A stretch of DNA of 64,000 bases from contig NZ_CP121014.1 in NCBI RefSeq assembly GCF_041468085.1, positions 558,001 through 622,000 on the forward strand, written 5' to 3'. A program made the position numbers and the translations under genes. This document shows, in pieces, positions 14,182 through 51,410 of this stretch. The notes beneath the pieces were generated by a model, which had not been told where the DNA came from, did not search any database, and saw only the letters and a list, made by a program, of their open reading frames with translations. Origin of the DNA: Tistrella mobilis. GTDB taxonomy: Bacteria; Pseudomonadota; Alphaproteobacteria; Tistrellales; Tistrellaceae. Positions within the stretch are counted from its first letter, which is position 1; every line of letters begins with the position of its first letter.

Positions 14182-15615
14182 ATGCCCACCACCGCCGGCA
14201 AGACGGCCGCCCGTCACGACATCGCCGCCGACCCCAACCCGTCGCTCATGGCCGCCCGGCGTGACTGGCACCGGCTTCAGGCCGCGCTGGCGCCCGAGAT
14301 GCGGGACTGGCTGGCCGGGCTGGTCAGCGCCTCGTCCGACGAGCTGGCGCGGGATTTCTACGACGTGCTGATGGCCGATGCCGAGGCGGCGCCGCTGCTG
14401 TCGAACGAAATCGTCCAGACCCGGCTGCGCAGCTCGCTCGCCGGCTGGATCCGAAGCCTGTTTCCGGCGGACCCCGCGCCCGATTTCGAGAACATGGCCA
14501 TCGTGCAGACGAAGGTGGGCGAGGTTCATGCCCGGGTCCGGGTCCCCCTGCACCTGGTCAGCCGGGGCGCCCGGCTGATCAAGGCCGGCATCGCCGGGCG
14601 GATCGCCGGCAGCCGGGTCGGCCGGGACGAGCTGGTCCGGCTGCTGCTGCATGTCGAGACCGTGATCGATATCGCCATCGAGCTGATGGGCACGGTTTTC
14701 GTCTCGGGGCTTGCCCATCAAAGCCGCGACGAGGAAGCCTACCGGCTGTTCTTCCTGAGCCAGGATCTGTCGCTGGAGCGCGAAAGCCAGCGCGCCTCGC
14801 TGCTGGAATGGAACCAGGCGGTGCTGCTGGCGCTGGCCGGCGGCAGCGGGTCGACCGAGCCCCTGCCCCGGATCGGCCGGTCGGATTTCGGCCTCTGGTT
14901 CCATCATCGCGGCGGCATCATGTTCGAGGGCACGCCGGTGCTGGACCGGGTGAACGAGCTGATGCAGCAACTGGACGAGGGCATCCTGCCCGAGACCGAT
15001 GCGGCGCGTGCGGCCGGCAACGGTTTCGGCCCTGCGCTGGGCCCGATCCAGAATGCCGTGAACGAGATTCGCTTCATCCTGAACGATGCCTTCCAGGCCC
15101 TGATCGGCGCCGAGGCCGGCCGCGATGCCCTGACCCGGACGCTCAATCGCCGCTTCCTGCCCGCGATCCTGAAGCGCGAGATCACGCTGGCGATGCGGCG
15201 CGACCAGCCCTTCGCCGTGATCATGGTCGATCTGGATCATTTCAAGGCGATCAACGACAGCCACGGCCACAGTGCGGGCGACGCAGCCCTGCGCCAGGCG
15301 GCGGAGACCATCCTCGGCACCTGCCGCAGCAGTGATCTGGTCTTCCGCTATGGCGGCGAGGAATTCCTGGTCGTCGCAGTGGAAGCCGGCGAAGCGGCCG
15401 CGCGTGCGCTGGCCGAACGGCTGCGCGAAGCCATCGCCCGGACCGAGGTCGTGCTTTCGGGCGACACCCGGATCCGCCTCGGCGCCTCGGTCGGCGTCGC
15501 GGTGTTCGACGGCCATCCCGATTACAATCATCTGGTCGAGGCAGCCGACAGCGCCATGTATCAGGCCAAGCGCGCGGGCCGCAACCGCGTGGTCGTCGCC
15601 GCCGGCAGCCGATAG
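14182..15615 (+). CDS. Globin-coupled diguanylate cyclase (DosC-like oxygen sensor)
   Basis: A 477-residue predicted c-di-GMP synthase. Residues about 25-180 look like a sensor globin: MAIVQTKVGEVHARVRVPLH holds the likely haem-proximal His116. A middle linker domain covers about 185-305. The GGDEF domain runs from about 315, with VDLDHFKAINDSHGH, an RSSD inhibitory site (382-385) and active GGEEF at 391-395. This order matches DosC-type proteins, which make c-di-GMP in response to oxygen. No clear ribosome-binding site precedes ATG 14182; Met23 is an alternative start. The gene is monocistronic. Confidence 0.82.
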   Translation: MPTTAGKTAARHDIAADPNPSLMAARRDWHRLQAALAPEMRDWLAGLVSASSDELARDFYDVLMADAEAAPLLSNEIVQTRLRSSLAGWIRSLFPADPAPDFENMAIVQTKVGEVHARVRVPLHLVSRGARLIKAGIAGRIAGSRVGRDELVRLLLHVETVIDIAIELMGTVFVSGLAHQSRDEEAYRLFFLSQDLSLERESQRASLLEWNQAVLLALAGGSGSTEPLPRIGRSDFGLWFHHRGGIMFEGTPVLDRVNELMQQLDEGILPETDAARAAGNGFGPALGPIQNAVNEIRFILNDAFQALIGAEAGRDALTRTLNRRFLPAILKREITLAMRRDQPFAVIMVDLDHFKAINDSHGHSAGDAALRQAAETILGTCRSSDLVFRYGGEEFLVVAVEAGEAAARALAERLREAIARTEVVLSGDTRIRLGASVGVAVFDGHPDYNHLVEAADSAMYQAKRAGRNRVVVAAGSR

Positions 15616-17162: not shown

Positions 17163-17194
17163 AAAGGGCCGGGATGGCGACATCCCGGCCCTTT
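17163..17194. terminator. Hairpin terminator between convergent genes
   Basis: A perfect 14-base-pair stem: AAAGGGCCGGGATG (17163-17176), loop GCGA, then CATCCCGGCCCTTT (17181-17194). It sits between the aldehyde dehydrogenase (plus) and the GntR gene (minus) and can serve both. Only a short T run follows, so strength is uncertain. Confidence 0.75.
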
Positions 17195-17221
17195 CTGCAT
17201 CGTGATGCCGATGCGCTGTGG

Positions 17222-17968
17222 TCAGTCCGTGCCGGTCGCCTGCGCAGGCGCGTCCACGGCCGGATCGCGGGCCAGCGCCGCCACCACCGCGCTGGTGGTG
17301 TGCTCGATATGCCGGCGGATCACCTCGGTGGCGCGGTCGACATTGCGGTCGAGCGCGGCATCCAGCAGGGCGCGATGTTCCAGATGGATGTCGCGGGTCA
17401 TCACGGTCTTGGCGCGCGACAGGCGGCGATAGCGTTCATGGTGGCGGAACATCATCGCCCGCATGCGCAGCAGCCAGGTCGAGGCGCAGGCCGAGACCAG
17501 CGCCTCATGGAAATCGTGGTTCAGCCGCTCCCATTCCGACATCTGCTCCACACCCTGGCGGTCGGCCAGTTCAACCCGCTCCAGCCGGTGATAGGTGGTG
17601 ATGACCCGCTCTTCCCAGGCGACATCGCCGGCCGGGATCGACTGGGCCAGGGCATCGGCTTCGAAGATCTTGCGCAGATGGCCGATCTCGCGGGCATCGG
17701 TCGCCGACATCGGCGCCACCACGAAACCGCGCTGGCCCTGCATCTGGACCAGATATTCCCCGGACAGCCGGGCCAGCGCCTCGCGCAGCGGCCCGGCGCC
17801 GATCTGATAGCGGTCGCGCAGCATCTCGATCTTGAGCTTCAGATCCGGCGGCAGCGCCCCGGTCACGATGTCTTCGCGCATCAGCCGATAGGCGCGTTCG
17901 GCCTGGGTCTTGTCTTCAATATCCGGTCGGGCGGGGCTATCCGGGCGGACGGGCGATTGCTTGTCCAT
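17222..17968 (-). CDS. GntR-family (FCD) transcriptional regulator of the TRAP/meta-cleavage operon
   Basis: A 248-residue FadR-type regulator. An N-terminal winged helix (YRLMREDIVTGALPP, then GAGPLREALARLSGE) precedes an all-helical FCD effector domain from about residue 105 with LNHDFHEALVSAC. The ATG at 17966-17968 is preferred; the longer reading to 18055 would use up the operator region. It is divergent from the TRAP transporter genes, and a perfect palindrome lies in that operon's promoter. It probably represses uptake until the substrate or an intermediate binds. Confidence 0.88.
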   Translation of the reverse strand: MDKQSPVRPDSPARPDIEDKTQAERAYRLMREDIVTGALPPDLKLKIEMLRDRYQIGAGPLREALARLSGEYLVQMQGQRGFVVAPMSATDAREIGHLRKIFEADALAQSIPAGDVAWEERVITTYHRLERVELADRQGVEQMSEWERLNHDFHEALVSACASTWLLRMRAMMFRHHERYRRLSRAKTVMTRDIHLEHRALLDAALDRNVDRATEVIRRHIEHTTSAVVAALARDPAVDAPAQATGTD

Positions 17969-18042
17969 GCGGTGTCGGTTTCCCGGCGAGATTGAAATTC
18001 CAGGCAGGCTAGTGCGACAGCCCAAAAATATCAATTTCCAAA

Positions 18043-18091: not shown

Positions 18092-18709
18092 ATGACAAAA
18101 ACCCTCGAAGAAGCCGGCGCGTCGCAGTCCCCGCTGCACACCGGCACCCGCGGCGTCCCTGGTCCGGTCGCCTGCCTGCAGACACTCAGCAACCGCATCG
18201 CCGGGATAGAGACCTGGGCGGCGGGGCTGACGGTGTTCGGCATCTTCTGCCTGCTGCTCGGCAACGTCGTCTCGCGCAGCCTGGGCAATCCGCTGATCTG
18301 GACCGACGAACTGGCCGTGTTCCTGATGGCCTGGGCGGCCTTCATCGGCGCCTCGCTCGGCCTCGCCCGGCGCCAGCATATCGCGATCACCCTGCTGCCC
18401 GATGCCCTCGGCCCCAGGGCGCAACGGCAGCTGGCCATCCTGGTCGATGTGGCCCTGCTGGTCTTCCTGGTCGTGCTCTCGGTGCAGATCTGGCGCTGGT
18501 TCGATCCGGTCGGCGTGCTTCAGGCCCCGTCGATCGAGGCGTTCACCTCTTCGACCTTCAACTTCATCTATCAGGAGCCGACGGTGACGCTTGGCATGCA
18601 CAAGGTCTGGTTCTGGCTGGTGATGCCGCTGTTCTGCATCACCGCCACCATCCACGTGCTGGCCGCACTTGCCGGCCGCCTGACCGGCGTGGCGGAGACG
18701 GCGGCATGA
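18092..18709 (+). CDS. TRAP transporter small permease (DctQ-like)
   Basis: A 205-residue inner-membrane protein with four hydrophobic segments: around residues 40-60, 75-95, 115-135 and 170-190. WTDELAVFLMAWAAFIGASL is the hallmark of TRAP small subunits. A strong GGAGG lies upstream. The gene overlaps the large permease by ATGA. It couples the substrate-binding protein to the large channel subunit in sodium-driven uptake of carboxylic acids. Confidence 0.9.
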   Translation: MTKTLEEAGASQSPLHTGTRGVPGPVACLQTLSNRIAGIETWAAGLTVFGIFCLLLGNVVSRSLGNPLIWTDELAVFLMAWAAFIGASLGLARRQHIAITLLPDALGPRAQRQLAILVDVALLVFLVVLSVQIWRWFDPVGVLQAPSIEAFTSSTFNFIYQEPTVTLGMHKVWFWLVMPLFCITATIHVLAALAGRLTGVAETAA

Positions 18710-19977
18710 TCGCGGGCGTCTCTTTCCTCGCCATGCTGGCGGTCGGCATGCCGATCGCCTTCGCGCTCGCCGCCCTCGGCCTGATCTACATCTTCGCCAC
18801 CGGCAATCTGATCCTGCTCCAGTCCTATGGTCAGCAGATGTTCGGCGGGCTGGAGAATTACGGCCTGCTGGCCCTGCCGCTGTTCATCCTGCTCGGCGAG
18901 TTCATGAATGCCGGCGGCATCGGCCGGCGGCTGATGGCGCTGGCGCTGGCCATGCTGGGCTCGATCCGCGGCGGGCTCGCCTATGTCAACCTGGTCGCCA
19001 ATATGATGATGGCGGCGATCCTGGGCTCGACGGTGGCGCAGATCACCATCATGTCGCGGCTGGCGGTGCCCGAGATGGAAAAGGCCGGCTATCCGCGCGA
19101 CGTGTCGGTGGCGATCACCGCCGCCGGCGGTCTGCTGGCGCCGATCATCCCGCCCTCGATGCTGTTCATCATCTTCGGCGTGATCGCCCAGATCCCGATC
19201 GGCGACCTGTTCATCTCGGGCATTGTGCCGGGCCTGCTGATCTTCTTCGCCTTCATCGGCGTGATCATGTGGCTGGGCCGCCGCCATGGCTTTCCGGCCA
19301 CCGAGGCGATGCCGATGCGCGCCCGTGTCCGGGCGGTGCTCGATGCCCTGCCGGCCGCGGCCATCCCGGTGATCATCGTCGGCTCGATCCTGGGCGGCCT
19401 TGCCACCCCCACCGAATCGGCCGCGATCGCCAGTCTCGCCGCGGTGCTGATCGGCCTGTTCGTCTATCGCGAGATGACGCTGGCCGACATCCTCCCCGCC
19501 TTCCTGAATGCCGCGCGCGGCTCGGCGACCGTGCTGTTCCTGATTGCGGCCGCCCAGGTGTTCAGCTGGGTCATCACCTTCGAAAACCTGCCGGCCCTGG
19601 TCGCCGAGGCCATGCAGGCGATGACCGCCTCGCCGATCGTCTTCCTGCTGCTGCTGAACGTGCTGCTGCTGGTGCTGGGCATGATCAGCGACCCGATCCC
19701 GGCCATCATCCTGATCGTCCCGGTCTTCCTGCCGGTCGCGACCGGCGTCTACGGCATCGATCCCTTCCATTTCGGCGTGGTGCTCTGCCTGAACCTGACG
19801 CTGGGTCTGCTGACACCGCCGGTCGGCACAGGGCTGTTCGTCGCGTCGCTGATGGGCAAGGTGAAGGCCGAACGTCTGGCCGTGCTGCTGGTGCCCTTCT
19901 TCCTGGCGGTGCTGTCGGTCCTGCTGCTGCTGGTCGTCTTCCCCGTTCTTTCCACCGGCCTCAAGGATCTGCTCTGA
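18706..19977 (+). CDS. TRAP transporter large permease (DctM-like)
   Basis: A 423-residue membrane protein with about twelve hydrophobic segments; length and features match complete DctM proteins. GGLLAPIIPPSMLFIIFGV is the conserved central motif and the C-terminal half has the LTLGLLTPPVGTGLF repeat. The ATG lies within the stop region of the small permease, so translation is coupled. The next gene, a dehydrogenase, starts on its stop codon (TGATG). Confidence 0.92.
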   Translation: MIAGVSFLAMLAVGMPIAFALAALGLIYIFATGNLILLQSYGQQMFGGLENYGLLALPLFILLGEFMNAGGIGRRLMALALAMLGSIRGGLAYVNLVANMMMAAILGSTVAQITIMSRLAVPEMEKAGYPRDVSVAITAAGGLLAPIIPPSMLFIIFGVIAQIPIGDLFISGIVPGLLIFFAFIGVIMWLGRRHGFPATEAMPMRARVRAVLDALPAAAIPVIIVGSILGGLATPTESAAIASLAAVLIGLFVYREMTLADILPAFLNAARGSATVLFLIAAAQVFSWVITFENLPALVAEAMQAMTASPIVFLLLLNVLLLVLGMISDPIPAIILIVPVFLPVATGVYGIDPFHFGVVLCLNLTLGLLTPPVGTGLFVASLMGKVKAERLAVLLVPFFLAVLSVLLLLVVFPVLSTGLKDLL

Positions 19978-20930
19978 TGGCGCGCATCTGGATCCTGGGC
20001 GGCGGGCTGATCGGCTGCGGCTGGGCCGCGGCCTTCGCCGGCGCCGGCCATGAGGTGACGGTGATCGACCCCGATCCGGCGGTGGCCGATCGCATCGCCA
20101 CCGTCCAGGCGCAGGCATTGCCGGTGCTGCAGGGCCTGGGCACCCTCAATCCCCTGGCGACCACGCCCCGCCATGTCGTGAGCGCGGCCGAGGCCGGCCC
20201 GCCGCCGGTGCTGGTGCAGGAGAACCTGCCGGAACGGCTCGATCTGAAGCGCCGGGCGCTGGCGGCACTGGAACCGCATCTGGCCCCGGACACCATCATC
20301 GCGTCGTCCTCGTCGGGTCTCTCGCCCGACGACATGGCCGAAGGGCTGGCCCGGCCCGAGCGGCTGCTGATCGCCCACCCTTGCAACCCGCCTTATCTGA
20401 TGCCGGTGGTGGAATTGTCGGGCGGTGCCCTGACCGCACCCGAGGTGGTCGTCCGCACCGCCGATCTCTTCCGTGCCATGGGCAAGACGGTGCTGACCCT
20501 CACCCGGCCGGTGCCGGGCCATCTGGTCAACCGCCTTCAGGCCGCGCTCTGGCGCGAGGCGGTGCATCTGGCAAGCGAGGGCATCGCCAGCCTGGCCGAT
20601 ATCGAGCAGGCGGTGATCCAGGGTCTGGCACCGCGCTGGTGCATCGTCGGCCCCTCCACCGTCTTCCATCTGGCGGGTGCCGAGGGCGGCATCGGGCGCT
20701 TCGTCGATGCGCTCGGCCCCGAATTCGAGCGCTGGTGGGCAACGCTGGGCGATCCCAGGCTGGACGCCGCCACCCGCGCCCGCCTCGTCTCCGGCATGGC
20801 CGCGGCGGATCCGCGACCGGTCGCGGAAATCGCCGCCGGCCGCGATGCCGGCCTGACCGAACTCATGGTCTTCCTCTCCAAGAAGGAAGCCACCCCCCAT
20901 AACGAGACCCCGAGAGGAAACCAGGGATGA
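19977..20930 (+). CDS. 3-hydroxyacyl-CoA dehydrogenase family (lambda-crystallin/gulonate dehydrogenase-like)
   Basis: A 317-residue NAD-dependent dehydrogenase. Residues 1-185 form a Rossmann domain: ILGGGLIGCGWAAAFAGAGH, then ASSSSGLSPDDMA and AHPCNPPYLMPVVELSGG, where the conserved HPxNPP motif holds the catalytic His. The C-terminal helical domain starts about PGHLVNRLQAALWREAVH. CNPPYLMPVVE is typical of the lambda-crystallin branch, which acts on free hydroxyacids (gulonate, carnitine) rather than CoA esters. The gene is wedged between the permease and binding-protein genes of a TRAP system, so it probably oxidises the imported hydroxyacid. Confidence 0.82.
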   Translation: MARIWILGGGLIGCGWAAAFAGAGHEVTVIDPDPAVADRIATVQAQALPVLQGLGTLNPLATTPRHVVSAAEAGPPPVLVQENLPERLDLKRRALAALEPHLAPDTIIASSSSGLSPDDMAEGLARPERLLIAHPCNPPYLMPVVELSGGALTAPEVVVRTADLFRAMGKTVLTLTRPVPGHLVNRLQAALWREAVHLASEGIASLADIEQAVIQGLAPRWCIVGPSTVFHLAGAEGGIGRFVDALGPEFERWWATLGDPRLDAATRARLVSGMAAADPRPVAEIAAGRDAGLTELMVFLSKKEATPHNETPRGNQG

Positions 20931-21898
20931 AAGCAGCACGCATCCTGACCGCCGCAGCCGCATTGATGGTCGGCCTGATCGGCGCCGAGGCCCAGGCCGA
21001 ACAGTACCGGCTGGGCCTGATCACCCCGCCGCCGCATCAGTGGTCGAAAAGCGCGGTGACGGTCGCAGACCGTATCAAAGAAGCCACCAACGGCCGGGTC
21101 GAGATTCTGGTCTTCCCCTCGGGCCAGCTTGGCAACGAGGCGCAGATGCTCCAGCAACTGCAGACCGGCGCGCTCGACTTCGCCTTCCTGACCCTGGGTG
21201 AATTCGCCAACCGCGATGCCGATTACGGTGTCTTCCTTGCCCCCTATATCGTCAAGGATGCCGCCGGCGCGCGGCAGATCCTGAAGGGCGGCGTGGCGCA
21301 GAAACTGCTGGGCGGGGTGTCCAAATTCGCGCTCAAGGGCTTCGGCTGGGGCATGGCCGGCATGCGCCAGATCGTGATGCGCGGCCCCGTGGCCTCGGTT
21401 GCGGATCTGTCGGGCAAGAAGGTCCGCACCGTGCCCTTCGCCCAGGAGCTGGATTTCTGGACCCGGCTGGGTGCGGCCCCCACCCCCATGCCGCTGCCGG
21501 CACTGTATGACGCCTTCGCCAACGGCCAGGTCGACGGCATGCAGATCGATTTCGAGGGCAGCTGGAACTCGAAGTATTACGAGCATGCCGGCGCGATCGT
21601 GGCCTCGAACCACATGATGTTCCCGATGATCGCAGTGGGTTCGGGCCGCAAGTGGCAGACCGTGCCCAAGGAAGATCAGGCGGTGATCGAAAAGATCATG
21701 GCCGAGGAACTGGACGGCATCGTCGGTGCCTATGCCGAGATCGACGCCACCTATCTCGACAAGCTGAAGACCACCAGCGTGCCGGTGGTGAACGCCGACC
21801 GCGCCTTCTTCGGCGGCGCCGTCGACCTCTGGTACCAGTCCTGGCGGGAGAAGACCCCGCTGCTGAAGGAGCTGGAGAAGGAAGCCGCGGGTCTCTGA
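20927..21898 (+). CDS. TRAP transporter substrate-binding protein (DctP-like)
   Basis: A 323-residue periplasmic binding protein with a Sec signal (MKAARILTAAAALMVGLIGA, cleavage near AQA-EQ). The mature part has LGLITPPPHQWSKSAV, and the conserved ligand-carboxylate Arg is expected in GMAGMRQIVMRGPV-type context, as in DctP proteins. It starts within the stop codon of the dehydrogenase gene (ATGA). It delivers a carboxylate to the DctQM permease. The ligand cannot be read from sequence; the aromatic pathway genes just downstream suggest an aromatic or hydroxy acid. Confidence 0.9.
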   Translation: MKAARILTAAAALMVGLIGAEAQAEQYRLGLITPPPHQWSKSAVTVADRIKEATNGRVEILVFPSGQLGNEAQMLQQLQTGALDFAFLTLGEFANRDADYGVFLAPYIVKDAAGARQILKGGVAQKLLGGVSKFALKGFGWGMAGMRQIVMRGPVASVADLSGKKVRTVPFAQELDFWTRLGAAPTPMPLPALYDAFANGQVDGMQIDFEGSWNSKYYEHAGAIVASNHMMFPMIAVGSGRKWQTVPKEDQAVIEKIMAEELDGIVGAYAEIDATYLDKLKTTSVPVVNADRAFFGGAVDLWYQSWREKTPLLKELEKEAAGL

Positions 21899-21977: not shown

Positions 21978-22871
21978 ATGACCGATATCTACCGGGATCT
22001 GCGCTATCTGCGTGTGCCCGTCGAGGATCTGGATGGTGCGGCGGCCTTCGCCACCGGCATTTTCGGCCTGCAGGCGGGCGATCACGACGATGCCAATCGC
22101 CGCTTCCGTTCAGACGCGCGCAATTACGCGATCTGCTACACGGCCGAGGCCGGCCCCGCCGCGGTGGCGCTGACCGTGGCCCATGCCCGCGAACTGGACG
22201 AGGCCGAGGCACGGCTTGCCGCCGCCTGTCCCGGCCTGCCCCGCCAGCGGCTGGATGCGGCGGCCTGCGCCGCGCGGCAGATCAAGGCCGGGCTGTCGGT
22301 GCTGGCGCCCAATGGTGTCGCGGTCGAGATCGTCTGGCGCCCGCTCACCTCGGGCTGGCGCTATCACGGCGCGCGCGATGCCGGCATCACCGGCCTGCAA
22401 TCGGTTCAGCTCGCCTGCACCGATATGGCGGCGAACGAGGATTTCTGGACCCGGGGCATCGGTGCCGGGGTCTCGGACTGGGCGGGCGATGCCGTCTTCC
22501 TGCGCATCGACGACGCCCATCACCGCATCGCCCTCTACCCGTCGGATCGCGACGGCCTGCTGGGTGCGGTGTGGGAGGTGGACGGCATCAATGCGGTGAT
22601 GCAGGGCTGGTATCTGTTCCAGGCCCGCCAGGTGCCGGTGGTCCACGGGCCGGGCCGTCAGCCCACTTCGGGCGCCATGTTCGTCACCGCCCGCGGCCCC
22701 GGCGGCCTGCTCCATTCCTATGCCCATGGCATGGAACGGGGTGAGGCGGTAACCGGCCGCGGCCCCCGCCAGTTCGCCGATGCCGCCCTGTCGCATTGCG
22801 CCTGGGGGTCACCCTGCACGGCCCCCGAATTTCTTGGAAAGGACGAATTCCTGGGGAGGGATGAGAGGTGA
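21978..22871 (+). CDS. VOC-family protein, extradiol dioxygenase-like with all metal ligands lost
   Basis: A 297-residue two-domain VOC protein, paralogous to the next gene (both share YHG-RDAGITG, WT-G, GPGRxPTSxAxF). By hand alignment to that neighbour, the three iron ligands of extradiol dioxygenases are replaced: H140 by S142, H194 by G196 and E245 by H246. The fold should persist but iron-dependent ring cleavage is unlikely from this chain alone. It overlaps the paralogue by four bases (GTGA), which suggests equal co-expression and possibly a heteromer. A divergent metal site or a non-catalytic role remains possible. Confidence 0.75.
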   Translation: MTDIYRDLRYLRVPVEDLDGAAAFATGIFGLQAGDHDDANRRFRSDARNYAICYTAEAGPAAVALTVAHARELDEAEARLAAACPGLPRQRLDAAACAARQIKAGLSVLAPNGVAVEIVWRPLTSGWRYHGARDAGITGLQSVQLACTDMAANEDFWTRGIGAGVSDWAGDAVFLRIDDAHHRIALYPSDRDGLLGAVWEVDGINAVMQGWYLFQARQVPVVHGPGRQPTSGAMFVTARGPGGLLHSYAHGMERGEAVTGRGPRQFADAALSHCAWGSPCTAPEFLGKDEFLGRDER

Positions 22872-23725
22872 TCGGTCTCAAGGACGTCGTCTATTGCCGT
22901 CTCGGCACCCGCGATCTGGCCGGTGCCGAATGGTTCGCGGTCAACATTCTGGGGCTTGAGGTGGCCGAGCGCCGCAAGGGCGCGATCTACTTCAAGTCCG
23001 ACTCCCGCGCCCACACGCTGTGCTATGTCGAGGGCGGCCGCGAGCAGGAGGCGACGGCCTTCGAGATCGCGACCTCCGCCGATCTGCAGAAAGCGGGGGC
23101 GGTGCTGGAGGATCTGGGCCATGCCGTCCATTACGGCACCCCGGCCGAATGCGATGCCCGCCATGTCCGCGAATTCATCCGCTTCGACGACCCGAGCGGC
23201 AACCATATCGAATTCGTGGTCCGGCCGGAAACCACGGCGCAGCGCTATCACGGCAGCCGCGATGCCGGCATCACCGGCTTTTCCCATGTCGGGCTCTGCT
23301 CCACCGACCCCGCCCGCGACGAGCTGTTCTGGACCGATGTCTGCAAGGCGCGGGTGTCGGACCGGATCGGCGATGCGCCGCTGATGCGCTTCGGCACCAT
23401 CCATCATTCGGTGGCGCTGTTCCCCTTCCACCAGCCGGGCATCCAGCACGTCAACCATCAGGTGGCGAGCACCGACGACATCCAGCGCTCGCTGGCGCAT
23501 CTGCGCCGCAACCAGGTGACGGTGACCTTCGGCCCCGGCCGGCACCCGACCTCTTCGGCGCAGTTCCTGTATTTTGCCGGCCCCGACGGCATGACCTTCG
23601 AATATTCGACCGGGGTCTGCGAAATCCACGACGAGCCGCTGTGGCGGGACCGCCAGTTCCATTTCGCGCCCAAGGGCTTCTGCCAGTGGGGTTCGGCACC
23701 GAACATCGCCGCCTTCAAGGACTGA
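22868..23725 (+). CDS. Extradiol ring-cleavage dioxygenase, VOC family (HpaD/BphC-type)
   Basis: A 285-residue type I extradiol dioxygenase. The putative 2-His-1-carboxylate site is complete: H140 (GFSHVGLCST), H194 (GIQHVNHQV) and E245 (GMTFEYSTG). An N-terminal VOC repeat covers residues 1-120 and the catalytic repeat covers 133-275. The start is GTG, overlapping the previous gene's stop; GAGAGG precedes it. It should cleave a catechol-type ring next to the hydroxyls. The downstream HpaE-, HpaH- and HpaI-like genes give the aldehyde-to-aldolase steps. The aromatic substrate is unknown. Confidence 0.82.
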   Translation: MIGLKDVVYCRLGTRDLAGAEWFAVNILGLEVAERRKGAIYFKSDSRAHTLCYVEGGREQEATAFEIATSADLQKAGAVLEDLGHAVHYGTPAECDARHVREFIRFDDPSGNHIEFVVRPETTAQRYHGSRDAGITGFSHVGLCSTDPARDELFWTDVCKARVSDRIGDAPLMRFGTIHHSVALFPFHQPGIQHVNHQVASTDDIQRSLAHLRRNQVTVTFGPGRHPTSSAQFLYFAGPDGMTFEYSTGVCEIHDEPLWRDRQFHFAPKGFCQWGSAPNIAAFKD

Positions 23726-23729
23726 CATC

Positions 23730-24434
23730 ATGACCGATCGTCTTGCCGCCACCGTCCGGGTCGCCGCCCGCGCACTCGGACGGGCCGGGCTGGTGCATGC
23801 CTATGGCCACTGTTCGGCGCGGATCGATGCCAACACCTTCCTGGTCTGCCCCTCGCGACCGATGGGGCTGGTCCGCCCGGGCGAGGCCTGCACCGTGGTG
23901 CCGGTGGATGGCCCGCTGCCGGCGGGGGTGCTGGGCGAAGTGCGGCTGCATCAGCGCATCTATGCAAAGCGGCCCGAGGCGCAGGGCGTGGTGCGTTTCA
24001 TGTCGCCCAACATGATGGCTCTGGCCGCTCTCGGCCGGGTGCCGCGCATGCGCCACGGTTTCGGCACCTATTTCGCCCCCGGCGTCGGGCTCTGGAACGA
24101 TGTCCAGCTGGTCCGCGACGACGAAAAGGCGGCGGGCGTGATCGAGGCGATGGGCGAGAGCGCGGGCGTGCTGATGCGCGGCAACGGCGCGGTCGTCGCC
24201 GGCGCCAGCCTGGAAGAGGCCGTGGGCCTTGCCTGGTATCTGGAAGACGTCTGCCGGATCGAGCTTGCCGCCCTCTCCACCGGCCTTGGCGACACGGCGC
24301 CGGTGATCGACCCCGAGGCCGCCGCCGCCCGCGCCACCCGCGCCGGCCTGATCTTCGAACGCATGTGGGACTATCTGACCGACGGCGATCCCGAGCGCGA
24401 CATCGCCACGCCGCCGGCCGACCGAAAGGAATGA
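23730..24434 (+). CDS. Class II aldolase/adducin-family protein lacking the zinc ligands
   Basis: A 234-residue protein with the family fold: GRAGLVHAYGHCSARID at the start and GEVRLHQRIYAKRPE in the middle. Relative to fuculose-phosphate aldolase the catalytic Glu is kept (E70), but both His of the HxH zinc pair are R89 and M91 (VVRFMSP), and the third zinc His is N152 (RGNGAVV). All three zinc ligands are therefore gone. Relatives in aromatic pathways decarboxylate ring-cleavage products (CmtD type). Here the mechanism, or whether it is an enzyme at all, is open. It sits between the dioxygenase and the semialdehyde dehydrogenase with an ATGA overlap. Confidence 0.78.
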   Translation: MTDRLAATVRVAARALGRAGLVHAYGHCSARIDANTFLVCPSRPMGLVRPGEACTVVPVDGPLPAGVLGEVRLHQRIYAKRPEAQGVVRFMSPNMMALAALGRVPRMRHGFGTYFAPGVGLWNDVQLVRDDEKAAGVIEAMGESAGVLMRGNGAVVAGASLEEAVGLAWYLEDVCRIELAALSTGLGDTAPVIDPEAAAARATRAGLIFERMWDYLTDGDPERDIATPPADRKE

Positions 24435-25894
24435 CCGACTTGACCCGTTTCCTGAACTTCATCGACGGCGAATTCGTCGCGGGCAGCGGCGAGGCCTTCG
24501 CCAATCATTTTCCGACCACGGGTGAAGTCATCGGCGAGGTCTCCGCGGCCGGCCGGGCAGAGGTCGATGCGGCGGTGGGCGCCGCAAAGGCGGCGCTGAA
24601 AGGCCCCTGGGGCCGGATGTCGATCCCCGAACGGGTGGCCCTGCTGCGCAAGCTGGCCGACGGCATCAACGCCCGCTTCGACGAGTTCCTGGCGGCCGAG
24701 ATCCGCGACACCGGCAAGCCGCGCTCGATCGCCTCGCATATCGACATCCCGCGCGGCGCCGCCAATTTCAACGTCTTCGCCGACCAGATCCTGACCGCCT
24801 CCACCGAAACCTTCGAGATGGCGACCCCCGACGGGGCCGGCGCGCTCAACTATGCACTCCGCCTGCCGCGCGGCGTGATCGCGGTGGTCTGCCCCTGGAA
24901 CCTGCCGCTGCTGCTGATGACCTGGAAGGTCGCCCCGGCGCTCGCCTGCGGCAATACCGTGGTCGTGAAGCCCTCGGAAGAAACCCCCGCCACGGCCACC
25001 CTGCTGGGCGAGGTGATGAATGCGGTCGGCATCCCGCGCGGCGTCTACAACGTCGTCCACGGCATGGGGCCGGGTGCGGCGGGTGAATTCCTGACCACCC
25101 ACCCGGACGTCAACGGCATCACCTTTACCGGCGAGACCCGCACGGGCGAGGCGATCATGCGCGCGGCGGCCGGCGGCATCCGCCCGGTCTCGCTCGAACT
25201 CGGCGGCAAGAATGCCGGCATCGTCTTCGACGACGCCGATCTGGAGGCGACGCTGGAAGGGCTGGGCCGCGCCTGCTTCGCCAATACCGGCCAGGTGTGC
25301 CTGGGGACCGAGCGGCTTTATGTCCAGCGCGGCATCTTCGACCGCTTCGTCGAGGGGCTGGCGGCCAAGGCGCGCAGCTACCGCTTCGGCGACCCCTTCG
25401 ACCCCGCCACCACCATGGGCCCGGTGATCAGCGCCGAACATCGCGCCAAGGTGCTGTCCTATTACGACAAGGCGCGGGCGGCCGGCGCGACGCTCGTCGC
25501 CGGCGGCGGCACGCCGGATGTCGCGGGCTATGCCGGCGGCTACTGGGTGGAGCCCACCGTCTGGACCGGCCTGCCCCAGGATGCGGCCGTGGTGCGCGAC
25601 GAGATCTTCGGCCCCTGCACCCATGTGACGCCCTTCGACACCGAAGACGAGGCGCTCGCGCTCGCCAACGACACCCCTTACGGCCTCGCCACCTCGATCT
25701 GGACCACCAATCTGGGGCGTGCCCATCGCGCCGCCAAGGGGATCGAGGTCGGCATCGCCTGGGTGAACTGCTGGTTCCTGCGCGATCTGCGCACGCCCTT
25801 CGGCGGTTCCAAGGCCTCGGGCATCGGCCGCGAGGGCGGCATCCATTCGATGGAGTTCTATACCGAACTCCGCAACGTCTGCATCAAGCTCTGA
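24431..25894 (+). CDS. 2-hydroxymuconic/5-carboxymethyl-2-hydroxymuconic semialdehyde dehydrogenase-like
   Basis: A 487-residue aldehyde dehydrogenase of the HpaE/XylG/DmpC group: FLNFIDGEFVAGSG at the start, VVCPWNLPLLLMTWKVAPAL, catalytic Glu in LELGGKNAGIVF, catalytic Cys in NTGQVCLGTERLYVQ and the closing GGIHSMEFYTELRNVCIKL typical of this group. It oxidises the semialdehyde made by extradiol cleavage to the dicarboxylate. ATG 24431 overlaps the previous stop. I call it HpaE-like rather than XylG because HpaH- and HpaI-like genes follow. Confidence 0.85.
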   Translation: MTDLTRFLNFIDGEFVAGSGEAFANHFPTTGEVIGEVSAAGRAEVDAAVGAAKAALKGPWGRMSIPERVALLRKLADGINARFDEFLAAEIRDTGKPRSIASHIDIPRGAANFNVFADQILTASTETFEMATPDGAGALNYALRLPRGVIAVVCPWNLPLLLMTWKVAPALACGNTVVVKPSEETPATATLLGEVMNAVGIPRGVYNVVHGMGPGAAGEFLTTHPDVNGITFTGETRTGEAIMRAAAGGIRPVSLELGGKNAGIVFDDADLEATLEGLGRACFANTGQVCLGTERLYVQRGIFDRFVEGLAAKARSYRFGDPFDPATTMGPVISAEHRAKVLSYYDKARAAGATLVAGGGTPDVAGYAGGYWVEPTVWTGLPQDAAVVRDEIFGPCTHVTPFDTEDEALALANDTPYGLATSIWTTNLGRAHRAAKGIEVGIAWVNCWFLRDLRTPFGGSKASGIGREGGIHSMEFYTELRNVCIKL

Positions 25895-25913: not shown

Positions 25914-26696
25914 ATGCTGACCGAAGAACAGCGCGCACGCTGCGTCGAAAGCCTGCTTGAAAGCCACCGCACCAAGGTGCAGGGCCAGCGCCCGTCCGAG
26001 ATGTTCCCCGAGATCGAGATCGCCGACAGCTATGCGATTTCCTCGGCCGTGGCCGCCGCGAAGGTGAAGGCCGGGGCGAAGATCATCGGCCACAAGATCG
26101 GCCTCACCTCCAAGGCCATGCAGGCGGCATCGAAGATCGACGAGCCGGATTACGGCTACATGTTCGACGATCTGGTGCTCGCCGACGGCGCCAAGGTGCG
26201 GTTCGAGGATTTCTGCGTGCCCCGCGTCGAGCCGGAGCTGACCTTCATCCTGAAGGAGCCGCTGAAGGGCCCGAATGTCGGCCTGGTCGACGTGCTGCGC
26301 GCCACCGAATGGGTCGTGCCCTCGATCGAGATCATTGACGCCCGGGTGACCGAACCGCGCCGGATCTTCGACACGGTTGCCGATAACGGTGCTGCCGCCG
26401 GCCTGGTGCTGGGCGGCCGGCCGGTGCGGCCGACCGATGTCGACCTGCGCTGGGTGGGGGCCATCTTCTACCGCAATTCCGAGATCGAGGAGACGGGGCT
26501 CGCGGCCGGCGTGCTCGGCCATCCGGCGATGGCGGTGGCCTGGCTCGCCAACAAGCTCGCCCCCTTCGACGTGACGCTGGAGCCCGGCCATATGCTGCTG
26601 TCGGGCAGCTTCACCCGGCCGGTCTGGGCGAAGAAGGGCGACACGCTGCATGCCGATTTCGGCCCGCTCGGCGCCGTCGCCGTGCAGTTCGTCTGA
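25914..26696 (+). CDS. 2-oxo-hepta-4-ene-1,7-dioate hydratase (HpaH-like)
   Basis: A 260-residue member of the FAH-fold hydratase/decarboxylase family. GHKIGLTSKAMQAASKIDEP is the hallmark of HpaH; metal ligands are probably E106 and E108 (RVEPEL) with E139 (SIEIIDAR). It adds water to the 2-oxo-enoate from the meta pathway, making the aldolase substrate. Related family members act as 4-oxalocrotonate decarboxylase or 2-oxopent-4-enoate hydratase; the KIGLTSKAMQ signature favours HpaH. It is followed by the aldolase after nine bases. Confidence 0.83.
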   Translation: MLTEEQRARCVESLLESHRTKVQGQRPSEMFPEIEIADSYAISSAVAAAKVKAGAKIIGHKIGLTSKAMQAASKIDEPDYGYMFDDLVLADGAKVRFEDFCVPRVEPELTFILKEPLKGPNVGLVDVLRATEWVVPSIEIIDARVTEPRRIFDTVADNGAAAGLVLGGRPVRPTDVDLRWVGAIFYRNSEIEETGLAAGVLGHPAMAVAWLANKLAPFDVTLEPGHMLLSGSFTRPVWAKKGDTLHADFGPLGAVAVQFV

Positions 26697-26705
26697 GGTG
26701 CGGCG

Positions 26706-27473
26706 ATGAAGGCCCCGCGCAACGATTTCAAGCGCCGGCTCACCGCCGGCGAGACCCTGAACGGCTTCTGGTTGTCGCTGGCAAGCCCCGTCGCCTCGGA
26801 AGCCCTGTCGCTCGCCGGCTTCGACTGGCTGCTCTTCGACGGCGAGCATTCACCGGTGGACGTGGCCGGCGTGCAGCCGCTGCTGCAGGCGGCCGCCACC
26901 GGCACCGCCTCGGCCGTGGTCCGGCCGGCCTGGAACGACAAGGTGCTGATCAAGCGCCTGCTCGACATCGGCGCCCAGACCCTGCTGGTACCCTTCGTCC
27001 AGTCGGCGGAGGAAGCCGCCGCCGCCGTGCTGGCCTCGCGCTATCCGCCCCATGGCGTGCGCGGCGTCGCCGGTGCCACCCGCGCCAGCCGCTACGGCCA
27101 GACCGAGGATTATTTCGCGGTCGCCAATCAGGAGATCTGCGTCCTGGTTCAGGTGGAAACCGGCGAGGCGCTGGGCCGGCTGGAAGAGATCGCGGCGGTC
27201 GACGGTGTCGACGGCGTGTTCATCGGCCCGTCCGACCTCGCCGCCTCGATGGGCCATCTGGGCAGGCCCGGCCATCCCGAGGTGCAGGCGGCGCTGAAGG
27301 ACGCCGCTGCCCGCATCGCCGCCACCGGCAAGGCCCCCGGCATCCTGGCCACCAGCGCCGCCGATGCCCGGCGCTATGTCGACTGGGGCTATCGCTTCGT
27401 CGCCGCCGGGGTCGATATCGGCGTGCTGATGGCCGGTGCGAAGGCCATGCTGGCCGAGGTCCGCGGCAGCTGA
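26706..27473 (+). CDS. 4-hydroxy-2-oxo-heptane-1,7-dioate aldolase (HpaI-like)
   Basis: A 255-residue class II (metal-dependent) pyruvate aldolase. H48 in DGEHSPVDV is the expected general base, with VQVETGEAL and GPSDLAASMG supplying the Glu and Asp metal ligands and GVRGVAGATRASRYG in the substrate loop. It splits the hydrated acid into pyruvate and a semialdehyde. It is the last gene of the operon and ends just before a hairpin and short tandem repeats. Confidence 0.87.
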   Translation: MKAPRNDFKRRLTAGETLNGFWLSLASPVASEALSLAGFDWLLFDGEHSPVDVAGVQPLLQAAATGTASAVVRPAWNDKVLIKRLLDIGAQTLLVPFVQSAEEAAAAVLASRYPPHGVRGVAGATRASRYGQTEDYFAVANQEICVLVQVETGEALGRLEEIAAVDGVDGVFIGPSDLAASMGHLGRPGHPEVQAALKDAAARIAATGKAPGILATSAADARRYVDWGYRFVAAGVDIGVLMAGAKAMLAEVRGS

Positions 27474-27576: not shown

Positions 27577-28446
27577 TCAGCCGCCCGCCGCCCACTGGTC
27601 GAGCAGGCTGATCCAGAGCGCCTTGGCGCGGAGCTGATAGGCGATCATGCCCGCGGTCAGCCGCCGCCGGGTTTCGCCCGGGCGAAGCGCATCGGGCAGC
27701 AGCGGATCGCGCACCAGGTTGCGGATCACCGTGCGGCCGATGGCGAGCGAGTCCGCCGCAACCGGTTCGGGTGACGCCTCCCCCCGCTCCACCGCATCCT
27801 GCGCCGCATTGCCAAGCACCAGCAGCCGGTCGAGATCCGCCTCCACCCGATCCATGGAGGCGCCATCCCAGAGGGCGCGGGCGCGCGCCTCGTCGTCGGG
27901 CGCCAGATCATCCAGGCGGAACACGGTTGCCGGGGGGGCCAGACCCAGCTGCATCAGATCATCCCGCAGCGCCGCGGTCCCGCCCGCCAGGTTGTCGGGC
28001 CGGATCCACACCCCCTGGGTCAGCTGCCGGAAGCCGCGCAGCCTGAGCGCGCGATCATGGCGGCGCAGCTGCGGCCGGTCGGTCCGGTCGATCGCCGCAT
28101 CGGCGACGCCGATCCAGGCACCGGACCAGGCGACCAGACGCCCTTCCCGCCGCCGCCAGCCTTCAACCTCGCGCACCAGCGCGCCGGCCGCGGCCAGCGC
28201 ATGAACACCGCGGGCGGGCGAGGTGATCACCCCATCCGCCTTCAGCCGGCTGAGCGCCACCCGCACCGTCTGATCGGTATAGCCGAACAGATTGCCGGCC
28301 CGGACCAGCGCCTTCAGCGGCAGTTCATGGGCGTCATGTGTCGTCAGAAGATCCAGAACCATCTCCCGTGCGTTGGGCGGGGTTGGATTCGTGACCGTTT
28401 CGGTGGAAACTGGAGCGTCGGCTTGCGATGTTTCGTCGATCGTCAT
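27577..28446 (-). CDS. PaaX-family transcriptional regulator
   Basis: A 289-residue protein of the phenylacetate-repressor family. A winged-helix domain near residues 30-95 holds LFGYTDQTVRVALSRLKADG, the best family signature, followed by the PaaX central domain (GVWIRPDNL) and a C-terminal helical domain. PaaX proteins bind aryl-CoA esters. Here it is divergent from a crotonase and acyl-CoA ligase pair, which would make and use such thioesters, so those two genes are the likely target. It is convergent with the meta-cleavage operon. Confidence 0.85.
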   Translation of the reverse strand: MTIDETSQADAPVSTETVTNPTPPNAREMVLDLLTTHDAHELPLKALVRAGNLFGYTDQTVRVALSRLKADGVITSPARGVHALAAAGALVREVEGWRRREGRLVAWSGAWIGVADAAIDRTDRPQLRRHDRALRLRGFRQLTQGVWIRPDNLAGGTAALRDDLMQLGLAPPATVFRLDDLAPDDEARARALWDGASMDRVEADLDRLLVLGNAAQDAVERGEASPEPVAADSLAIGRTVIRNLVRDPLLPDALRPGETRRRLTAGMIAYQLRAKALWISLLDQWAAGG

Positions 28447-43328: not shown

Positions 43329-43413
43329 CATTCGATCCGGATCCGGCACCTAACGTCGGCGCATCCCCACATGCGGGCCGCAGATGGCCTGCCAATCCAG
43401 GTGGATGACTTCG

Positions 43414-46107
43414 ATGCAGGCACCCGGCACCCCCGTCCCGAAACAGGCGGGCCGGATACTCGGCATGAGTACTCTGGCTTTCACCACATCCTTTGCCGTC
43501 TGGACGATCTTCTCGATCATCGGAATCCGCATCCAGCAGGAGCTGGGGCTGAGCGATACCCAGTTCGGCCTGCTCGCCGGAACCCCCATCCTGACCGGAT
43601 CGCTGGTCCGCATCGTGCTGGGCGTCTGGGCCGACCAGTATGGCGGGCGCACCGTCTTTGCGCTCACCATGCTCGCCGCCGCGGGGGCGACCGCGCTGCT
43701 CTCGCTGGCCGACAGCTACGAAACCATGCTGCTGGCCGCCCTCGGCGTCGGCCTGGCCGGCGGCACCTTCGCGGTCGGCGTCGCCTATGTCTCCAGATGG
43801 TATCCGCGCGGTCGGCAGGGCACGGCGCTCGGCATCTTCGGCGCCGGCAATGTCGGCGCGGCGGTGACCAAATTCGTCGCCCCTTTCGTGATGGTCGCCT
43901 TCGGCTGGACCACGGTCGCCCTGGTCTGGGCGGCGGCGCTGGCGGTGATGGCGGTGGTGTTCTGGCTGACCACGGCCGACGACCCTGAAACCGTCGCCCG
44001 CCGTGCGCGGGGCGAACGGCCGCGCAGCGCCTTCCTGGAACTGGCGCCGCTGAAGCGGCTGCAGGTCTGGCGGTTCGCGCTCTACTACTTCTTCGTCTTC
44101 GGCGCCTTCGTGTCGCTGGCGCTGTGGCTGCCGCACTATCTGGTCGGCGTCTACGGGCTCGACATCAAGACCGCCGGCATGCTCGCCGCCTTCTATTCCG
44201 TGCCGGCCAGCGTCTTCCGGGCCTATGGCGGCCATCTGTCGGACCGCAAGGGCGCGCGCACGATCATGTACTGGACCTTCGGGGTCTCGGTCATCGCCAC
44301 CTTCATGCTGTCCTATCCGCCGACCGACTACGTCATCCATGGTCTGGCCGGCCCGATCGCCTTTTCGACCAGCATGGGCCTCGTGCCCTTCGTGATCCTG
44401 ATCTTCGTGCTGGGCTTCTTCATGTCGCTGGGCAAGGCGGCGGTCTACAAGCACATCCCCGTCTACTATCCCGACAATGTCGGCGCGGTGGGCGGCCTGG
44501 TCGGCCTGATCGGCGGCCTGGGCGGTTTCATCCTGCCGCTCACCTTCGGCGTGATGCTCGACCTGACGGGCATCTGGACCAGCTGCTTCATGCTGCTGTT
44601 CGCGATCGTCGCCGTCGCCTTCATGTGGATGCATCTCTCGATCCGGCAGATGGAGCGCCAGGCGCTTTCCGCCGAACTCGACGCCCTGCCCGACCTGCCG
44701 GAAATGCGCGAAATCCACGGGCCCGACCAGCGCGCCGAAACCGGGCGCGTGATCGAGGACTGGCGGCCCGAGGATCAGGATTTCTGGACGACCACCGGCC
44801 GGCGCATCGCCCGGCGCAATCTCTGGATCTCCATCCCCTGCCTGCTGCTCGCCTTCGCGGTCTGGATGGTGTGGAGCATGGTGGTGGCCAGGCTGCCGGC
44901 GATCGGCTTCGCCTATTCGACCGAACAGCTGTTCTGGCTCGCCGCCCTGCCCGGCCTGTCGGGCGCCACGCTCCGGATCTTCTATGCCTTCATGGTTCCG
45001 GTCTTCGGCGGCCGGCTCTGGACCACGCTTTCCACCGCGTCGCTGCTGATCCCGGCCTTCGGCATCGGCTATGCCGTGCAGAACCCCGAAACCCCCTATC
45101 TGATCTTCCTGGTCCTTGCCCTGCTCTGCGGCTTCGGTGGCGGCAACTTCGCCTCGTCGATGGCCAATATCAGCTTCTTCTTCCCGAAGAGCGAGAAGGG
45201 CAACGCCCTCGCCCTCAATGCCGGGCTCGGCAATCTGGGCGTCAGCGTCATGCAGTTCCTGGTGCCGCTGGTCATCACCATGGGCGTGTTCGGCGCCATG
45301 GGCGGCGGGGCGCGACCGACCGCGGCGGGCGATATGCTCTGGCTGCAGAATGCCGGCTTCGTCTGGGTGCCCTTCATCCTGGCCGCGACCGTCGCCGCCT
45401 GGTTCGGCATGAACGACATCGCCGCGGCCCGCGCCTCGTTCCGCGATCAGGCGGCCATCTTCGGCCGCTCGCATACCTGGATCATGTGCTGGCTCTATAC
45501 CGGCACCTTCGGGTCCTTCATCGGCTACGCGGCGGCCTTCCCCCTGCTCACCCGTACCCAGTTCCCCGAGGTCGACGCGCTGCAGTTCGTTTTCCTGGGC
45601 CCGCTGGTCGGCGCCCTCTCCCGCGCCGGCACCGGCTGGATCTCCGACCGCTTCGGCGGCGGCCGGGTCACTCTCTGGACCTTCGTGCTGATGATCGCAG
45701 GCACCGCGGGCGTGATCTGGTTCCTGGGCATGAAAGATCAGCCGGGCGCGTTCCAGGGCTTCTTCGCGATGTTCATGGTGCTGTTCTTCGCCACCGGCGT
45801 GGGCAATGCCTCCACCTTCCAGATGATCCCCGCGATCATGCGCACGGTGATCGACCGCACCGCACCGGCCGGCCTCGCCCCCGCCGAGCGGCTGCGCCGG
45901 GCCGAGCGCGAATCGGCCGCGATGATCGGCTTCACCTCGGCCATCGCCGCCTATGGCGCCTTCTTCATCCCCAAGGCTTATGGCAGCTCGATCGCGGCCA
46001 CCGGCGGTGCCGAAGCGGCGCTTCTGGGCTTCCTCGGCTTCTACGTCACCTGCGTCGCCGTCACCTGGTTCTTCTACACCCGGAAGAACGCCCCGGTGCG
46101 CTGCTGA
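43414..46107 (+). CDS. narK: Fused nitrate transporter NarK1-NarK2
   Basis: An 897-residue membrane protein made of two 12-helix MFS transporters in tandem. The first half (residues 1-420) has GLAGGTFAVGVAYVSRWYP and the second GFGGGNFASSMANISFFFP, each a nitrate-porter signature ending in a GxGNxG motif. A charged linker with EDWRPEDQDFWTTTGRR joins them. Fused NarK1 (proton-nitrate symport) and NarK2 (nitrate-nitrite exchange) are known in Paracoccus and relatives. I chose ATG 43414 because AGGTGG ends nine bases earlier; ATG 43384 is also open. It heads the nitrate-respiration operon. Confidence 0.92.
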   Translation: MQAPGTPVPKQAGRILGMSTLAFTTSFAVWTIFSIIGIRIQQELGLSDTQFGLLAGTPILTGSLVRIVLGVWADQYGGRTVFALTMLAAAGATALLSLADSYETMLLAALGVGLAGGTFAVGVAYVSRWYPRGRQGTALGIFGAGNVGAAVTKFVAPFVMVAFGWTTVALVWAAALAVMAVVFWLTTADDPETVARRARGERPRSAFLELAPLKRLQVWRFALYYFFVFGAFVSLALWLPHYLVGVYGLDIKTAGMLAAFYSVPASVFRAYGGHLSDRKGARTIMYWTFGVSVIATFMLSYPPTDYVIHGLAGPIAFSTSMGLVPFVILIFVLGFFMSLGKAAVYKHIPVYYPDNVGAVGGLVGLIGGLGGFILPLTFGVMLDLTGIWTSCFMLLFAIVAVAFMWMHLSIRQMERQALSAELDALPDLPEMREIHGPDQRAETGRVIEDWRPEDQDFWTTTGRRIARRNLWISIPCLLLAFAVWMVWSMVVARLPAIGFAYSTEQLFWLAALPGLSGATLRIFYAFMVPVFGGRLWTTLSTASLLIPAFGIGYAVQNPETPYLIFLVLALLCGFGGGNFASSMANISFFFPKSEKGNALALNAGLGNLGVSVMQFLVPLVITMGVFGAMGGGARPTAAGDMLWLQNAGFVWVPFILAATVAAWFGMNDIAAARASFRDQAAIFGRSHTWIMCWLYTGTFGSFIGYAAAFPLLTRTQFPEVDALQFVFLGPLVGALSRAGTGWISDRFGGGRVTLWTFVLMIAGTAGVIWFLGMKDQPGAFQGFFAMFMVLFFATGVGNASTFQMIPAIMRTVIDRTAPAGLAPAERLRRAERESAAMIGFTSAIAAYGAFFIPKAYGSSIAATGGAEAALLGFLGFYVTCVAVTWFFYTRKNAPVRC

Positions 46108-46134
46108 GCCGCCGCACGCAAGGACTTCGTCCCG

Positions 46135-49871: not shown

Positions 49872-49875
<4 letters not shown>
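46135..49875 (+). CDS. narG: Respiratory nitrate reductase alpha subunit
   Basis: A 1246-residue molybdopterin enzyme, full length. The N-terminal FS0 cluster is bound by H51, C55, C59 (HGVNCTGSC) and C94. The molybdenum-ligand Asp is D223 in WYCDLPPASP, and GSNVPQTRTPDAHF follows. The absence of a Tat signal and the His/Cys FS0 pattern mark it as cytoplasmic, membrane-bound NarG. It reduces nitrate to nitrite with electrons passed from quinol through NarI and NarH. It overlaps narH by four bases (ATGA). Confidence 0.97.

Positions 49876-51410
<1,535 letters not shown>

Follow-up and report, generated by a model that had tools for sequence, protein, structure and literature searches.

In the alphaproteobacterium Tistrella mobilis, the gene for an intact type I extradiol dioxygenase (VOC2) directly follows the gene for a paralogue (VOC1) in which all three metal ligands are replaced. 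The arrangement recurs in other Alphaproteobacteria, where the chain without ligands keeps its place upstream of the active one, is co-inherited with it, evolves under purifying selection and has the predicted fold of the enzyme. We consider it probable that VOC1 and VOC2 assemble, as distinct subunits, into a single heteromeric type I extradiol dioxygenase with a carboxylated catechol as substrate; the physical complex, its stoichiometry, its substrate and the role of VOC1 are what we infer from that evidence.

A tandem pair of paralogous VOC genes

The window, that is the whole stretch of 64,000 nucleotides analysed (contig NZ_CP121014.1, positions 558,001 to 622,000), contains both open reading frames on the same strand (Table 1), in agreement with the first-pass annotation of tandem paralogous VOC genes overlapping by GTGA. 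More specifically, the TGA stop codon of VOC1 occupies 22869-22871 and the GTG start codon of VOC2 occupies 22868-22870. The two proteins are 36% identical over 279 columns (BLASTP, E 3e-49), each matches the Pfam Glyoxalase/Dioxygenase family, and a search of the genome with VOC1 at E<=0.001 returns two matches, VOC1 itself and VOC2. The nearest named record of VOC1 is a 96% identical copy on plasmid pTM2 of T. mobilis KA081020-065. In the two annotated records (T. mobilis pTM2 and a Pseudosulfitobacter plasmid), both genes are labelled solely 'VOC family protein'. VOC2 falls under the NCBIfam cut-offs for HpaD (82.9 versus 321 bits), HsaC (95.4 versus 450), biphenyl-2,3-diol dioxygenase (91.9 versus 366) and catechol 2,3-dioxygenase (66.6 versus 320), and VOC1 scores below VOC2 for all four of these equivalogs.

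Table 1. Features of the VOC1/VOC2 locus, in window coordinates
Feature	Position	Strand	Remark
TRAP transporter small permease DctQ	18092..18709	+	
TRAP transporter large permease DctM	18706..19977	+	
3-hydroxyacyl-CoA dehydrogenase-type NAD-dependent dehydrogenase	19977..20930	+	
TRAP transporter substrate-binding protein DctP	20927..21898	+	
VOC1 (P0001, 297 aa)	21978..22871	+	metal-site-dead paralogue of type I extradiol dioxygenase
VOC1 S142	22401-22403	+	place of VOC2 H140
VOC1 G196	22563-22565	+	place of VOC2 H194
VOC1 S247	22716-22718	+	place of VOC2 E245
GTGA stop/start overlap VOC1/VOC2	22868..22871	+	
VOC2 (P0002, 285 aa)	22868..23725	+	intact type I extradiol dioxygenase
VOC2 H140	23285-23287	+	metal ligand place
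VOC2 H194	23447-23449	+	metal ligand place
VOC2 E245	23600-23602	+	metal ligand place
Class II aldolase/adducin family protein	23730..24434	+	all NCBIfam scores under cut-off
2-Hydroxymuconic semialdehyde (HMS) dehydrogenase	24431..25894	+	TIGR03216, 826 bits, cut-off 693
HpaH-like hydratase	25914..26696	+	TIGR02312, 349.2 bits, just below cut-off 351.5
HpaI-like aldolase	26706..27473	+	TIGR02311, 335.7 bits, below cut-off 368.8
PaaX-like transcriptional regulator, cluster end	27577..28446	-	33.7 bits, far below cut-off

Relatives of the pair

Two queries served to find relatives: VOC1 and a profile (A1) built from dead copies, meaning copies without the metal site. Matches were obtained in 22/385 genomes of the class and 3/59 relatives at E<=1e-10, in 3/43 and 4/7 genomes of the orders of G378 and G265 and in 7/398 genomes of the phylum at 1e-25, and with A1 at 1e-35 in 11/198 (family of G686), 1/54 (order of G681) and 8/248 genomes (family of G593). 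These genome sets overlap; the class, relatives and phylum sets include the genome of the window, and some matches are not dead copies. The fetched loci, window included, yielded 26 dead and 46 intact VOC chains for alignment, the latter comprising 26 partners and 20 that are solo or belong to an intact-intact doublet (G208, G297, G375). Eight further dead copies came from the family-of-G593 search, giving 34 metal-site-dead copies in 33 alphaproteobacterial genomes or records. The dead copies found are confined to Alphaproteobacteria; intact genes with no dead neighbour occur in Alphaproteobacteria, Betaproteobacteria and one genome of another class (G681).

L003, which is the same record as G162, was left out of the alignment, and a distant intact VOC (L074:1398-2336) fell outside the E-value cut-off. 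The Pseudosulfitobacter plasmid is represented by a single record out of 38, and the counts extend neither to another match in the C. necator N-1 record nor to a partial Leisingera match.

The metal site is lost completely in the upstream copy

The ligand places of VOC2 were set by alignment with Mn(II)-bound 3b59 and homoprotocatechuate 2,3-dioxygenase (HPCD). Both references align their ligands with H140, H194 and E245, the residues originally proposed for the second copy. In the multiple alignment, S142, G196 and S247 of VOC1 lie opposite these three. The first-pass assignment for VOC1 was accordingly right in S142 and G196 and is corrected at the third site, given there as H246: the true change is from glutamate to serine at S247, and H246 lies one residue earlier, opposite VOC2 F244, and is not conserved among relatives.

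The absence of three given residues from one sequence of 36% identity is weak evidence by itself, because the chance is about 0.64 cubed, a quarter. Once truncated, N-bearing and duplicate rows had been removed, the triad behaves in an all-or-none manner across the relatives: of 87 full-length chains, the complete triad is present in 53 and wholly absent from 34, and no chain retains one or two of its residues. Not one of the 102 ligand cells in the 34 dead copies holds the native residue, which lends good support to the earlier reading that the first copy cannot bind iron in the usual way. The place of H140 is taken by A, S, G, C or D, that of H194 by A, G, N, Y, S or E and that of E245 by S, T, G or A; counted by reading, 83/102 cells are A, S or G.

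The loss extends to part of the second shell. H179, H226 and Y235 of VOC2, which we take to correspond to H200, H248 and Y257 of HPCD, are each present in all 46 chains with the full triad. VOC1 has V198, Q228 and T237 at the places of VOC2 N196, H226 and Y235, and among the dead copies the native residue is found at the H226 place in 0/34 and at the Y235 place in 1/34. VOC1 H181 and H182, at the places of VOC2 H179 and H180, are kept in 34/34 dead copies. Four columns alone are dead-specific by the cut-offs used (L140, R183, Q209 and S278), and R183, beside the two histidines, is Arg in 24/26 dead copies versus 13/46 intact chains. R133, D134, R264, C274 and W276 (VOC1 numbers) are invariant in all 34 dead and 53 intact chains.

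Dead and active genes stay together

That the two genes form a conserved unit is well supported: a partner gene lies beside each of the 34 dead copies, with order and adjacency preserved. By script, the dead gene precedes the active one on the same strand in 25/25 fetched pairs; this also holds in the window, and reading gives the same order for 8/8 further copies, a total of 34/34. The 4-base overlap is present in 13 of the 25 fetched pairs (14/26 with the window), the other genes being 9 to 228 bases apart. In family f171, 11/198 genomes matched, each with exactly two matches in tandem and none with a single one. The first-pass annotation had named conserved metal ligands, or relatives in which the first copy acts alone with iron, as grounds for abandoning its reading; none of the 34 dead copies retains a ligand at its place, and none lies without a partner gene beside it.

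The partner is intact beside 32/34 dead copies. In G1109, a run of 109 N crosses the partner on contig C3, and a complete second pair lies on C4. In G1104, the dead copy on contig C12 adjoins an active gene (L135:2930-3367) from which the central portion is missing in frame; another active copy, which is intact, stands alone on contig C50 (L136:6700-7548), near Rieske oxygenase-like ORFs. This lone copy is 74% identical to the paired G593 enzyme and counts against a strict dependence on an adjacent dead gene. No dead neighbour was found in the fetched stretches around six intact relatives with His at position 197. That position, His in paired actives and Phe in many solo enzymes, was tried as a mark of pairing and rejected, because the solo enzymes of Cupriavidus, Paraburkholderia, Caballeronia and G681 also carry H197.

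Intact-intact tandem doublets with all three ligands in both chains occur in G208, G297 and G375 (L044:9171-10926, L045:8956-10695 and L046:9293-11034) and offer a natural comparison for the dead-active pair.

Phylogeny and selection

A maximum-likelihood tree of 76 rows was built with the ligand columns and column 197 removed, using L020, L021, L022 and L025 as outgroup and leaving out two distant relatives, L023 and L024. The eight further dead copies enter neither this tree nor the Mantel test nor the dN/dS comparison. The tree gathers the 26 dead copies into a single clade (97/96); the paired actives, also 26, make up another (100/96), inside the H197 group and beside solo betaproteobacterial enzymes. 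When the four longest dead branches were dropped in a quick rerun, the SH-aLRT values were 96 for the dead and 99 for the paired active clade.

Distances in the dead tree follow those in the partner tree (Mantel r 0.84 over 26 pairs, with 0/20000 permutations as high), and 16/23 splits are common to both, compared with at most 3 in 2000 shuffles. Such congruence can also arise when both genes travel on one replicon, and it would follow from joint transfer as well; more telling is that order and adjacency stay constant amid differing surroundings. Dead copies are 2.35 times as far from each other as their partners are (median ratio, tree). In ten genome pairs, some of which share genomes and are thus not all independent, dN/dS is 0.057-0.377 for the dead copy and 0-0.236 for the active one, the dead value being higher in 9/10. 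These values indicate that the dead chain is constrained, though more loosely than its partner.

The dead clade falls outside all intact chains on the tree, with long branches involved, and an origin of the dead copy within the paired clade gives an AU p of 0.259. Duplication of the active gene in situ as the source of VOC1 is thereby neither shown nor excluded.

Both chains are predicted to share the dioxygenase fold

Structure prediction, which the first-pass annotation had proposed as a check, was run on single chains with AlphaFold2 and gave for each the type I extradiol dioxygenase fold over nearly its full length (pLDDT 90.8 for VOC1, 92.6 for VOC2). The two-domain VOC fold of the VOC1 model superimposes on BphC 1kw3 (Z 32.8, rmsd 2.0, 269 residues). 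That of VOC2 superimposes on 6l3w (Z 33.1, rmsd 2.1, 275 residues) and on BphC, HsaC, HPCD and XylE with Z 32-33 and rmsd 2.1-2.4 over 270-281 residues. Among the VIA-align rows shown, 3b59 (from Novosphingobium aromaticivorans), BphC, HsaC and HPCD share the fold of VOC1/VOC2 with Z of about 30-33 over about 262-290 residues at 11-25% identity; these entries are titled as enzymes, and a dead partner is named in none.

The weakest blocks of the VOC1 model are the linker (121-130 at 79, 131-140 at 81) and the C-terminal tail (261-297 at 68, 79, 75 and 46), and those of VOC2 are the tail (251-285 at 79, 77, 82 and 67) and 121-130 (79); VOC2 block 131-140, which holds R131/D132, reaches 89. Yet the invariant R133, D134, R264, C274 and W276 lie in or near this low-confidence linker and tail, a combination that we read as a putative shared subunit interface; the weak scores of the tail may also be due to something else.

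Genomic context and likely pathway

The window operon looks like a meta-cleavage pathway of the 2,3-dihydroxybenzoate/p-cumate type. The product of the gene directly after VOC2 is likely, by analogy with the DhbB/CmtD proteins in the available parts of two reports (PMC6362003, PMC5224996), to be the decarboxylase of a carboxylated ring-cleavage product. As far as the accessible text of PMC6362003 describes them, DhbA of Pseudomonas reinekei MT1 and OpaC of Pseudomonas sp. PTH10 are 2,3-dihydroxybenzoate 3,4-dioxygenases of type I, OpaC having 285 aa like VOC2, and their cluster holds a product decarboxylase, an HMS dehydrogenase and a TRAP transporter. Of this context, the window shows a TRAP transporter, a TIGR03216 match above cut-off and, as putative decarboxylase, a member of the class II aldolase family that stays under every NCBIfam cut-off. 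The same source assigns the decarboxylation step of the opa pathway to OpaD, of the metallo-dependent hydrolase superfamily, and that of MT1 to DhbB, a class II aldolase (PMC6362003, in part). Because this gene logic is similar to that of the opa pathway, the substrate class would be a 2,3-dihydroxybenzoate- or p-cumate-like catechol.

OpaC is a single gene product, unlike the VOC1/VOC2 pair, and the comparison rests on its description and not on sequence identity; in E. coli extract it converts 2,3-dihydroxybenzoate with no partner (PMC6362003, available part). That part of the report names no second extradiol dioxygenase in the opa operon, which also encodes a 300-aa hypothetical protein, OpaO. 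It also gives PsbC2 (BAA82122) of Rhodopseudomonas palustris no. 7, a 2,3-dihydroxy-p-cumate 3,4-dioxygenase, as 51% identical to OpaC. The numeral in its name suggests that a PsbC1 exists, in which case GenBank may already contain a pair of this kind that has gone unnoticed. P. putida cmtI was considered as a dead copy and dropped, cmtI having been renamed cmtR according to the accessible portion of PMC5224996.

The surroundings of the pair vary (TRAP transporter and class II aldolase, Rieske oxygenase and SDR, or unrelated-looking genes), yet the VOC genes stay adjacent. In Tistrella, UBA6062 and G378/G392/G394, a TRAP transporter lies upstream and a class II aldolase-type protein downstream, and these clusters also hold HMS dehydrogenase-like, hydratase-like and aldolase-like genes. 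On the Pseudosulfitobacter plasmid, the pair is preceded by a ring-hydroxylating dioxygenase, an SDR and an ABC transporter, and followed by an amidohydrolase, a fumarylacetoacetate hydrolase family protein, an acetaldehyde dehydrogenase, an aldolase and an alpha/beta hydrolase. ORFs of the same oxygenase-alpha family are found in G265, G593, G892, G905, G907 and G424. In G957 and G966, no pathway gene is evident beside the pair, the neighbours having been judged without family searches.

The gene table of the matching T. mobilis cluster, which may be incomplete, lists no oxalocrotonate tautomerase; the ORFs considered here were those of at least 90 aa. The hydratase and aldolase that follow the HMS dehydrogenase (25914-27473) could form a route to pyruvate and a semialdehyde without the usual decarboxylation. 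The dctP gene is a single frame in the window (20927-21898) and two annotated pieces in T. mobilis KA081020-065 pTM2 (L079:13078-14050). The ORF at 17174-17995 (+) was rejected as a gene: Pfam and NCBIfam return nothing for it, and the T. mobilis record has an FCD-domain protein on the other strand. Elsewhere in the window lie a nitrate reductase region (43384-51410) and a Protoglobin-GGDEF protein (14182-15615), likely an oxygen-sensing diguanylate cyclase (DosC-like). In the nitrate reductase region, NarG-like and NarH-like proteins come after an MFS protein of 907 aa, which matches MFS over three stretches and may consist of two fused NarK units.

Discussion

In the enzyme that we propose, in line with the first-pass suggestion of a heteromeric dioxygenase, VOC2 would hold the metal through H140, H194 and E245 and cleave the ring of a substrate such as 2,3-dihydroxybenzoate; the product of the next gene would decarboxylate the ring-cleavage product, which would then pass down the meta-cleavage route. 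VOC1, which has neither the metal ligands nor the second-shell residues at the H226 and Y235 places, should be incapable of the reaction. Having kept the two-domain VOC fold, the interdomain linker and the C-terminal tail, it would probably replace some chains in the oligomer, where it may stabilise, position or tune the active ones. The activity of OpaC by itself and the six H197 relatives with no dead neighbour indicate that the partner is unneeded for the chemistry in general.

Other roles for VOC1 can be envisaged. It could be a separate, metal-independent enzyme of the pathway, such as a tautomerase, an isomerase or a second decarboxylase, co-transcribed with VOC2 and outside any complex. 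Such an enzyme might use the histidines H181/H182, retained in all dead copies, since H181 aligns with VOC2 H179, a position that we presume to be that of the catalytic H200 of HPCD; the enrichment of Arg at R183 in dead copies and the missing tautomerase annotation, where the opa pathway has one, would fit as well. However, the HH motif is equally present in all intact chains, so its retention may be structural, only four columns are dead-specific, and elsewhere the pair has a more complete set of genes behind it (Pseudosulfitobacter plasmid) or neighbours that seem unrelated (G957); we regard this reading as unlikely. Somewhat less likely again is a regulator or protector that binds a ligand and contacts VOC2 transiently, sensing substrate or product, retaining iron or preventing inactivation. 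Separate reactivating proteins are known for some catechol dioxygenases, the pairing is strict, and small residues (A, S or G) at most ligand places would leave a cavity; a full-length homologue with the linker and tail of VOC2 would nevertheless more readily share its oligomer interface than make a passing contact.

Two further readings carry very little weight with us. A metal or cofactor at a shifted site, suggested by H246 of Tistrella VOC1 beside the lost glutamate place and another His four residues further, is very improbable: neither His is conserved in other dead copies, which, apart from H181/H182, have no near-invariant set of His, Asp, Glu or Cys unique to them. Least credible of all is a decaying duplicate without function, which could be read into the faster evolution of the dead copy and the damaged partner gene of G1104, since dN/dS is well below 1 (<0.4) in 10/10 genome pairs and the frame is open in 34 copies from many genera, each upstream of a partner gene.

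Heteromeric ring-cleaving enzymes are known from folds other than VOC, namely hydroquinone dioxygenase and LigAB, whose subunits differ in size. In 2-aminophenol 1,6-dioxygenase (AmnAB), a metal-free LigB-fold subunit is paired with a metal-bearing homologue; AmnAB is the closest architectural analogue of VOC1/VOC2, in the LigB rather than the VOC fold. VOC1 and VOC2 are full-length paralogues, unlike the unequal subunits of hydroquinone dioxygenase and LigAB. To our knowledge, the well-known type I extradiol dioxygenases (BphC, XylE and HpaD) are oligomers of one active chain. Two subunit kinds, as proposed here, are described for the heterotetrameric hydroquinone dioxygenase, and a heteromeric make-up for the LigAB-type protocatechuate 4,5-dioxygenase, in the available part of PMC3222310. 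A literature search of partial coverage, over titles and the openings of abstracts, returned no type I enzyme that is heteromeric or has a dead partner.

On balance, we lean slightly towards regarding VOC1/VOC2 as the first heteromeric VOC extradiol dioxygenase, with a pseudoenzyme subunit that arose once, lost its metal site and became the near-obligate alphaproteobacterial partner of a 2,3-dihydroxybenzoate/p-cumate-type enzyme, a parallel within the VOC fold to LigAB and AmnAB. The annotation of both genes would be sharpened in comparison with their present 'VOC family protein' labels. Solo and paired versions of one enzyme would provide a natural system for asking what a pseudoenzyme subunit contributes, and a conserved metal-free sister chain, if true, would mean that the VOC fold too has evolved heteromeric dioxygenases.
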